A DNA stretch of 32,998 nt from positions 1 through 32,998 of the forward strand of contig JARFQZ010000216.1 of NCBI GenBank assembly GCA_029287515.1, read 5' to 3'. Both the position numbers and the translations under genes were made by a program. The stretch comes from Lysobacterales bacterium. Its GTDB lineage: Bacteria; Pseudomonadota; Gammaproteobacteria; Xanthomonadales; SZUA-36. The notes under the pieces were generated by a model, which worked only from the letters and a program-made list of their open reading frames with translations, did not search any database and had not been told where the DNA came from. The number at the start of each line of letters is the position of its first letter. The stretch's first letter is position 1. Below are positions 28,840-31,584 of the stretch, in pieces.

Positions 28840-29940
28840 TCAGAGTTTCAATGGCATCACGACATGCTTGTCCCTGCCACCAGCCTCGCTGGATATGAGA
28901 CAGCTGCTGTTTGCGTCTTTCAGAGCCAGCACAACAGAGTTTCCTTCAATCGCGCTCAAAGCATCGAGAAGGTAAGTGACGTTGAAACCAATGGCAATAT
29001 GCTCAAAATTAAGCTCTGCTTCCAGTTCTTCGATGGCTTCTTCATGTTGCGGGTTGTGGGCCACGATTTTCACCGAATCCGTCGAAGCTTCCAGTCTCAC
29101 ACCTTTATATTTTTCGTGTGAAAGAATGGATGCCCTCTGCAAGGCCAACATGAAACTCTGGCGATCCAGCTTTATGTGTTTATCCGTGCCCTTTGGGATT
29201 ACCGCCAGGTAATCCGGAAACCGGCCATCGATCAGTTTGGATGTGAAAATCATGTTTTCCTTGACAAGCCGTATATGGTTCTTACCCAGGGCCAGTTCGA
29301 CCACATCATCACTTTCTGACAGCATCCTGGAAAGCTCAAGCACCCCCTTCCTGGGCACAATCATCTGCCGGTCCTGAGCAATGCCCAGGTCACTCTCGAG
29401 GTCGCAAACCGCCAAGCGGTGTCCATCGGTAGCAACGGTCGTCAATGACCCGTTTTGAAACTCGAACAACAACCCGTTGAGATAATACCTGACGTCCTGA
29501 TTAGCCATGGAAAAGGATGTTTTATCGAGAAGTTTTTTCAATTCAACTTCTTGAATTTTAAGTGATTCTAGAGTTTCAACCTGGTCTGTGGCAGGAAACT
29601 CGGTCGCAGGGAGCGTCGAGAGCGTGTATCGCCCTCTTCCGGAAGAGATTAAAAGTTTGTCGCCTTCCAGAGAAGCGGTGATGTTTACGCCTTCAGGGAG
29701 TTTCCTGACAATATCCACAAGCTTTCTTGCAGGTACCGTGACCTCACCCTCCTGAGGAATGTCCGCTTCCACTACGGCGATCAATTCCACTTCCATGTCC
29801 GTACCTGTAACCGATAGGCGGCCCCCTTGTGCTGAGATAAGAAAGTTGGCCAATACGGGTAATGTCTGCCTGCGCTCAACAACACCCACGACCTGGCTGA
29901 TGGGTTGAAGCAGGGCTTCCTGTTGAATACTGAATTTCAT
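28840..29940 (-). CDS. dnaN: DNA polymerase III sliding clamp (beta subunit)
   Basis: 366 aa; MKFSIQQEALLQPISQVVGVVERRQTLPVLANFLI, C-terminal VVLALKDANSSCLISSEAGGRDKHVVMPLKL. Confidence 0.98.
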   Translation of the reverse strand: MKFSIQQEALLQPISQVVGVVERRQTLPVLANFLISAQGGRLSVTGTDMEVELIAVVEADIPQEGEVTVPARKLVDIVRKLPEGVNITASLEGDKLLISSGRGRYTLSTLPATEFPATDQVETLESLKIQEVELKKLLDKTSFSMANQDVRYYLNGLLFEFQNGSLTTVATDGHRLAVCDLESDLGIAQDRQMIVPRKGVLELSRMLSESDDVVELALGKNHIRLVKENMIFTSKLIDGRFPDYLAVIPKGTDKHIKLDRQSFMLALQRASILSHEKYKGVRLEASTDSVKIVAHNPQHEEAIEELEAELNFEHIAIGFNVTYLLDALSAIEGNSVVLALKDANSSCLISSEAGGRDKHVVMPLKL

Positions 29941-30100
29941 AAGCGCCTTCCTGTAGAGTAATTATTTATATATTTATATTTAAAAATTGTAGTAGTAATA
30001 AGCCTGGTGGATATGTAAATAAACAACTTTTGTCTTTAAAATTCAGTGAATTGCTTCCCGGAAACAAGAGCATATCAAGACTGTTTACCTGTTTACAGCC

Positions 30101-30109
30101 TGTGGATAA
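30101..30109 (-). promoter_or_regulatory. DnaA box (perfect 9-mer)
   Basis: TGTGGATAA, reverse complement of TTATCCACA. Confidence 0.85.
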
Positions 30110-30135
30110 AAATGGGTACATATTTGATCCACCAC

Positions 30136-30144
30136 TTATCCACA
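30136..30144 (+). promoter_or_regulatory. DnaA box (perfect 9-mer)
   Basis: TTATCCACA. Confidence 0.85.
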
Positions 30145-30187
30145 CCTTTTACAAATTTTGATCACAAACTTATCCTTCTGCTGGTCG

Positions 30188-31513
30188 TCAGCCGGTTAAA
30201 GAGCGGACCAGTTTTGCTTTATCTTCGCGAATTCTCCCATCCGTATCGCACAATTCGTCGATTTTGCGACAGGCATGCAAAACGGTAGTGTGATCTCGTC
30301 CACCGAAGGCATCTCCGATCTCCGGCAAACTATGTTCTGTGAGCTCCTTGCATAAAGCCATGGCTACCTGCCGTGGCCGAGCTATCGTTCTCGGACGACG
30401 CCTGGACAAAAGATCAGAGACCCTCAGCTTGTAGTATTCAGCGACCGCTTTTTGAATATTTTCGATCGTAATCAGGCGGTCATGAACATGAAACAGTTCT
30501 CTGAGGACCTCCCGGGCGAAATTTTCCGTAATCGGCCGCCCGGTGAAACGTGCATTTGCGAACAGAGTATTGAGTGCGCCTTCAAGATCCCTTACGTGCG
30601 AGCGGACCCTTCTTGCTACCAGGTAAGCAACCGCTTCATCGAGAAAGACATCCCTTTCCTGGGCCTTGTTCATCAGGATAGCGACACGGGTTTCAAAATC
30701 CGGGGGCTCGATTGAGACGGTCAACCCCCAGCCGAAACGTGACCTCAGTCGAGCCTCAATACCATCAACTTCTTTGGGGTAACGGTCACAGGTCAAGATG
30801 ATTTGCTGTTGACTATCAAGCAAGGCATTGAAAGTATGGAAAAATTCTTCCTGTGTACGGTCTTTTCCAGCGAAAAACTGGACGTCATCGATCAGGAGGG
30901 CGCCTGCGGTGCGGTAGTGCTGCTTGAATGCTTCAATCCGGTCCCCCCTCAGTGCACTGATCATTTCGCTGACAAACTGCTCTGAGCCCAGATAGATCAC
31001 CTTGGAATCGGGGTTTCGTTTATGGAGCAGGTTGCCGGCAGCGTGTAACAAGTGGGTTTTACCAAGACCGGTGCTGCCGTAAATCACCAGGGGGTTGTAG
31101 GCTGTTCCGGGTTTCTTTGCAACCTGCTGGGCGGCTGCATACGCGAGTTCGTTGGATTTACCCTGGACAAAATTCTTGAATCGGTAGCGGCGGTCCAGAC
31201 CGGTGTTGACACGTTTATGTTGTTGTTTAGGCTTGGTTTTGGCAGCAATAGCGGTGTTCTGTCTGCTGACATCTACGGCCACAGAATCGCGGGATGCGCC
31301 GAGATGCTCGAAGATATCGCGAATTCTCTCAAGGTGGTTTAAGGAAATGTAATCCCTTACGTATTCGTTGGGCGCAAGCAGCATCGTTCGACCCCGGGAC
31401 GACTTTGTTTGCAAAGGACGTATCCAGGTATTGAAATCTTCAGCCGGGAGCTCTCGCTCCAGGTGGTTCAAGCAGGTTTGCCAGTGTGTTTGGGGCATTC
31501 CGGGATTTATCAA
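30188..31513 (-). CDS. dnaA: Chromosomal replication initiator protein DnaA
   Basis: 441 aa; YGSTGLGKTHLLHAAGN, LLIDDVQFFAGKDRTQEEFFHTFNALLDSQQQIILT, domain IV GGRDHTTVLHACRKIDEL. Confidence 0.98.
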   Translation of the reverse strand: MINPGMPQTHWQTCLNHLERELPAEDFNTWIRPLQTKSSRGRTMLLAPNEYVRDYISLNHLERIRDIFEHLGASRDSVAVDVSRQNTAIAAKTKPKQQHKRVNTGLDRRYRFKNFVQGKSNELAYAAAQQVAKKPGTAYNPLVIYGSTGLGKTHLLHAAGNLLHKRNPDSKVIYLGSEQFVSEMISALRGDRIEAFKQHYRTAGALLIDDVQFFAGKDRTQEEFFHTFNALLDSQQQIILTCDRYPKEVDGIEARLRSRFGWGLTVSIEPPDFETRVAILMNKAQERDVFLDEAVAYLVARRVRSHVRDLEGALNTLFANARFTGRPITENFAREVLRELFHVHDRLITIENIQKAVAEYYKLRVSDLLSRRRPRTIARPRQVAMALCKELTEHSLPEIGDAFGGRDHTTVLHACRKIDELCDTDGRIREDKAKLVRSLTG

Positions 31514-31575: not shown

Positions 31576-31584
31576 TGTGGATAA
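31576..31584 (-). promoter_or_regulatory. DnaA box in the dnaA-rpmH divergent intergenic region
   Basis: TGTGGATAA, perfect reverse complement of TTATCCACA. Confidence 0.75.

Follow-up and report, generated by a model that had tools for sequence, protein, structure and literature searches.

The locus considered here raises the question of where, and on which strand, the chromosome of an uncultured gammaproteobacterium is first opened for replication. The window, that is, the whole stretch of DNA analysed, is a complete contig of 32,998 bp from an assembly (G000) of 2.77 Mb that is 76% complete. The relatives used for comparison are uncultured gammaproteobacteria, mostly deposited as Lysobacterales, Xanthomonadales or Chromatiales bacteria. 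The answer developed below is that the dnaA–dnaN spacer is very probably oriC, with positions 29958–30022 as a strand-opening module working via a DnaA filament on the trios.

Gene context and position of the origin

The genes dnaA, dnaN, recF and gyrB lie on the minus strand of the window; upstream of dnaA, rpmH and rnpA are encoded on the plus strand. dnaA occupies 30188–31498; its start codon is probably at 31498, and the open frame reaches 31513. A phmmer comparison matches its product to B. subtilis DnaA in the origin complex 8btg with E = 6e-106. dnaN (28840–29940) encodes the sliding clamp and forms the downstream border of the putative origin. The spacer between these two minus-strand genes is 247 bp long (29941–30187), and the site that a preliminary description had placed between dnaN and dnaA does lie within it. 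A second short DnaA-like AAA+ protein, possibly the Hda regulator, is encoded by a 231-aa frame at G000:C350:5381-5800 (L002).

GC skew had been named as a check on this location, and it agrees. The cumulative GC-skew minimum of the window falls at 30772, inside dnaA. In the genus mate G003, a contig of 207,724 bp also has its cumulative minimum in dnaA, at 96001, with dnaN starting at 96843, and a two-line fit of the skew breaks at 98,500. The purine–pyrimidine minimum of the same contig, at 95305, agrees with the GC skew. The extremes of the keto disparity (G+T minus A+C) did not fall at dnaA in the window or in G003.

The trio block and its adjacent DnaA boxes

The A+T-rich tract GTAATTATTTATATATTTATATTTAAAAATTG occupies 29958–29989, is 94% A+T and contains a TTATT motif on the plus strand (29962–29966). 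By nearest-neighbour energies it has the lowest stability of any 31-bp stretch in the 33-kb window, at −26.1 kcal/mol against a window mean of −44.1 (s.d. 3.5) for stretches of this length, and 29951–30001 is the least stable 51-bp stretch. The tract is followed on the plus strand by four DnaA-trios, TAGTAGTAATAA (5'-TAG-TAG-TAA-TAA-3', 29990–30001), and by the GC patch GCCT (30002–30005), for which the family consensus at the same four positions is GGGC. The patch leads to the trio-proximal DnaA box on the minus strand (30006–30014), which reads GGTGGATAT on the plus strand and ATATCCACC on the minus strand and has two mismatches to TTATCCACA. Direct reading confirmed the trios, the patch and this 7/9 box to the base. 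Counted from the box, the trios are 3'-AAT-AAT-GAT-GAT-5': the two distal units are 3'-GAT-5' and the two box-proximal ones 3'-AAT-5'. The run comprises four successive NAN trinucleotides, compared with a BUS minimum of three, typically 3'-GAT-5' or 3'-AAT-5'.

A second weak box, TTATTTACA, lies in the same orientation on the minus strand at 30014–30022, overlapping the first by one base. It was overlooked in the preliminary description, as were the two perfect distal boxes and the IHF-like position discussed below. The two adjacent boxes stand 4 bp and 12 bp from the trios and have two mismatches each, where the BUS rule allows up to two mismatches and up to 16 bp. On the trio strand the order is 5'-trios-GC-TGTGGATAA-like box-3', the polarity that BUS requires. 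The orientation, the 4-bp spacing and the A+T tract match the published layout, in keeping with the DnaA-trio/BUS architecture and polarity first proposed. The adjacent boxes are tandem and co-oriented but both weak, and the upstream one is poorly kept in the family.

Conservation in the family

The comparison covered the dnaA–dnaN spacers of 33 family genomes, among them that of the window, and the trios were located with a scoring finder that tolerates single variant units. At least three of the four units are NTA on the dnaA strand in 30 of the 33 spacers, although the members share ancestry and their agreement does not amount to 33 independent tests. The middle positions of the trios are kept in 125 of 132 cases. 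The block stands at the same place and with the same spacing, 49–68 nt from dnaN, and the gap between box and trios is fixed at four bases, mostly G+C. The TAG repeats, whose conservation in relatives had been put forward as a check, are therefore retained. The sites of the box–trio block (−20 to +9, counted from the first trio) hold approximately 1.0 bit each, against approximately 0.3 in most of the upstream spacer. Over all offsets, mismatches to TTATCCACA are at their minimum at position −13 (mean 2.64; at most three in 82% of members), and position −21, that of the second box, is a weaker minimum (mean 4.3). Across the family, the trinucleotides are better kept than the adjacent DnaA box.

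In genus g7 (L032, L113–L115), the trio-adjacent box is decayed and the trios are intact; a box-like TTTTACACA approximately ten bases further out in three of the four members may replace it. Only in L027, among the family members, is the trio run clearly degenerate (GTATGACGACGA), although it has boxes and an IHF-like site.

The dnaA–dnaN spacers of Rheinheimera/Idiomarina/Shewanella-type relatives (L045–L108, L110–L112) are only 12–96 bp long, and no such trio block was found in them. These spacers would serve as a natural negative control if the origins of these bacteria lie elsewhere, as does the E. coli oriC at mnmG–mioC.

Distal boxes and the IHF-like position

Two perfect copies of the DnaA box TTATCCACA stand further from the trios, one on the minus strand at 30101–30109 and one in the opposite orientation, on the plus strand, at 30136–30144. 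A direct box near −108 or −98 is present in 31 of the 33 family members, and an inverted box near −143 in 29. Between the trio block and these boxes, the minus strand carries an IHF-like position, CAATTCACTGAAT (30041–30053), which is degenerate, with two mismatches to YAANNNNTTGATW, and is not significant in the window copy; it is the position that suggests a role there. IHF-like sites with at most one mismatch occur in 26 of the 33 family members, against 2.6 expected. Nearly all stand at −51 to −54 from the trios, and they include most of L004–L032, L113–L115 and L149. The distal boxes and the IHF-like site, at their fixed distances in the family, show the spacer as a whole to be of fixed design.

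No matches to HU/IHF or DciA were found in the window's own assembly. This is probably due to its 76% completeness, because genus mates have these proteins; G003 encodes IHF alpha and beta, an HU and DciA.

Proposed course of opening and the DnaA residues involved

DnaA occupancy, the role of IHF, filament growth and helicase loading at the elements between 29958 and 30144 can be inferred as follows. DnaA would bind the perfect distal boxes (30101–30109 and 30136–30144) strongly and the weak tandem pair (30006–30022) cooperatively, probably aided by an IHF bend at approximately 30041–30053. From the weak pair, a filament of ATP-DnaA would extend over the 4-bp GC patch onto the plus strand, with one DnaA per trinucleotide and the first two bases of each trio captured. 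The plus strand would thereby be peeled from the minus strand, the A+T tract 29958–29989 would open toward dnaN, and the helicase would be loaded there. Because the trio strand is the plus strand, melting should begin near 30001–29990 and run toward 29958.

The DnaA filament of B. subtilis starts from a pair of boxes in the same orientation and extends onto the trios, where a pocket at the junction of adjacent protomers captures two bases of each trio (PMC10721633). The window DnaA keeps the residues that match B. subtilis E183, I190, K222, E228 and the arginine finger R264, and a shared mechanism is therefore likely, judging from the protein sequences. Four other positions differ: N187 is Ser, I193 is Leu, N196 is Asp and R202 is Lys. 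N187 reportedly contacts the middle adenine of the trio in B. subtilis, and base reading at this position may perhaps be looser in the window DnaA. A simple covariation between residue 187 and the middle base of the trio was considered and rejected, since Ser occurs with CTA, CCA and CAA repeats. In other gammaproteobacteria with NTA repeats, residue 187 is mostly Ala.

Repeats without a middle adenine in sister families

Sister families from the same taxonomic order still have a three-base block at this place, 50–75 nt before dnaN, but the sequence of the block is altered. CCA-type repeats replace CTA in f2 (L153–L161), where they are clear in eight of nine genomes and poor in L160. An f2 block on the dnaA strand reads, for example, CTA-CCA-CCA-CCA (3'-GGT-5'), and one CTA next to the box is often kept. 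All three f3 genomes (L162–L164) have CAA repeats, CAA-CAA-CAA on the dnaA strand (3'-GTT-5'); in f4 and f11 the repeat unit is ATC in most genomes. The periodicity exceeds that of shuffled sequences, with a combined p of 4.5e-7 for f2 and 2.9e-5 for f3, values that come from related and not independent genomes. With CCA and CAA units, the trio strand lacks the middle adenine. Three-base repeats free of the middle adenine also occur 45–75 nt upstream of dnaN in L212 (f12). In L260, from another order of the class, CAA is repeated four times at 45–75 nt upstream of dnaN, and the DnaA motif is unusual (E183N, N187H).

It can be tentatively hypothesized that this lineage keeps the three-base phase and the position of the block rather than the trio sequence. 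Trios without a middle adenine would then be functional, and the register would be the code, read by a DnaA that lacks Asn187; this is somewhat doubtful. Such deviant trios were suspected by Pelliciari et al. 2021, with no example given in the text consulted. An origin motif of Xanthomonadales, ACCAYYACCACCACCAC, carries the annotation DnaA box in Table 1 of PMC7174414, but it looks like CCA-type trio repeats.

For an uncultured gammaproteobacterial family, the likely site and strand of chromosome opening are located here to the base. The relatives form a graded series, with canonical trios at one end and trios lacking the middle adenine at the other, and the natural origin–DnaA pairs of this series suit a test of the adenine-capture model, in which Asn187 makes the contact.

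Alternative explanations

TA-rich triplets are common in A+T-rich DNA, and the test for three-base periodicity alone gave only p = 0.04 for the window, which would leave room for a chance arrangement. A strict scan was made with the published rules (PMC8287927), tightened by demanding TA[G/A] units: three or more such units, no further than 16 bp from a box of no more than two mismatches, in the correct polarity. It returned a single place in the 33 kb, the trio block. After Markov shuffling, runs of four units appeared in 0.025% of spacers, and 60 shuffled windows contained none. The 2.77-Mb assembly has a single match to the pattern TARTARTARTARN{2,14}GTGGATA, at the trio block, and none to the reversed control pattern. 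Given also the conservation in the family, chance is scarcely credible and was rejected. The dnaN start lies approximately 50–60 nt beyond the repeats, the DNA around them is A+T-rich and a ribosome-binding site is close by, as would suit a dnaN promoter or leader without any replication role. This reading was rejected as very unlikely, since no sigma-70-like promoter was matched on the dnaN strand of the spacer. Nor would a promoter be expected to have a three-base phase linked to a DnaA box, and relatives with a dnaA–dnaN spacer of 12–96 bp have dnaN without the repeats. The true origin might instead be the rpmH–dnaA spacer, with 29958–30022 as a secondary or relic site, given that bipartite origins flank dnaA in Bacillus and Clostridioides and that its perfect box on the minus strand (31576–31584) is shared by 10 of the 11 relatives read. 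That box is the only one there, trio runs were found on neither strand in any of the 11 relatives read, and it is the dnaN side of dnaA that has the strongly A+T-rich tract. With one conserved box and no trios, the rpmH–dnaA spacer was rejected as the origin, which it is very unlikely to be; the box is probably a dnaA autoregulation site rather than an unwinding site. In most relatives read, the sequence around this box ahead of dnaA is conserved and CAAGTTATCCACAGCGSGTTAGACTT-like.

A more serious alternative accepts the same origin and the same opening site and differs in the route. By ssDUE recruitment of the E. coli/Thermotoga type, DnaA oligomers bound at the distal boxes would be bent back by IHF and capture the plus strand of the opened tract at the TAG repeats and TTATT, in place of a single filament extending from the adjacent boxes. 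The order DUE, trios, box, IHF-like site and boxes is that of the E. coli oriC (DUE, TTATTAG, R1, IHF site). The IHF-like site and the distal boxes stand at fixed distances in the family, the adjacent boxes are weak, a TTATT is present at 29962–29966, and the TAG repeats of Thermotoga bind DnaA in this way (PMC10316083). However, box and trios stand a constant 4 bp apart throughout the family, as in the BUS layout, and the trinucleotide phase is kept although the E. coli TTATT route does not depend on one. Recruitment of this kind is possible, though less probable than filament growth on the trios, and the two are compatible and not exclusive.

Comparison with known systems

BUS elements are predicted in the origins of 85% of 2,070 species. 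Tandem boxes are predicted in 57% of origins, and a near-consensus upstream box is a tendency and not universal. Trio motifs in gammaproteobacterial origins have been found by machine learning (PMC7174414). On its sequence, the window site fits the known DnaA-trio/BUS kind and would not constitute a new system. With the B. subtilis type, it shares the dnaA–dnaN location, the polarity, two co-oriented boxes, a short GC patch, TAG/TAA trios and an A+T-rich tract beyond them (PMC6669920, PMC8287927, PMC10721633, PMC10316083). It differs in having four trios instead of six and in its boxes, which are both weak, overlap by one base and have the proximal one better kept. The critical box #6 of B. 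subtilis is a consensus box (PMC10721633), whereas the adjacent boxes of the window have two mismatches each. Further differences are Ser for Asn187 and Lys for Arg202 in DnaA and the family-wide IHF-like site.

The oriC2 of Clostridioides difficile has the trio 5'-CACCTACTACTATTACTACTATGA-3', with the same YTA repeat at the same dnaA–dnaN position, and its DnaA-dependent opening was mapped by P1 nuclease; it differs in its longer run, its additional boxes and its place in a bipartite origin (PMC7561715). In the left half of the E. coli oriC, the opening tract, trio-like bases, box and IHF site have the same order and orientation, and the polarity of TTATTAG...TGTGGATAA is that of the window's trios and box. 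In contrast, the E. coli origin lies at mnmG–mioC, has a 13-bp gap to a perfect R1 box and has only a weak trio run, and its BUS score is reported to be weak (PMC8287927). The oriC of Thermotoga maritima has TTATT and TAG repeats beside the box region, as in the window, but there the TAG repeats (eTrio, TAG x3) serve ssDUE recruitment and the box-adjacent DnaA-trio is only supportive (PMC10316083). Within the DnaA-trio/BUS kind, the traits of the window's family are two weak adjacent boxes, box-proximal trios of 3'-AAT-5' and a DnaA with Ser at the position of Asn187.
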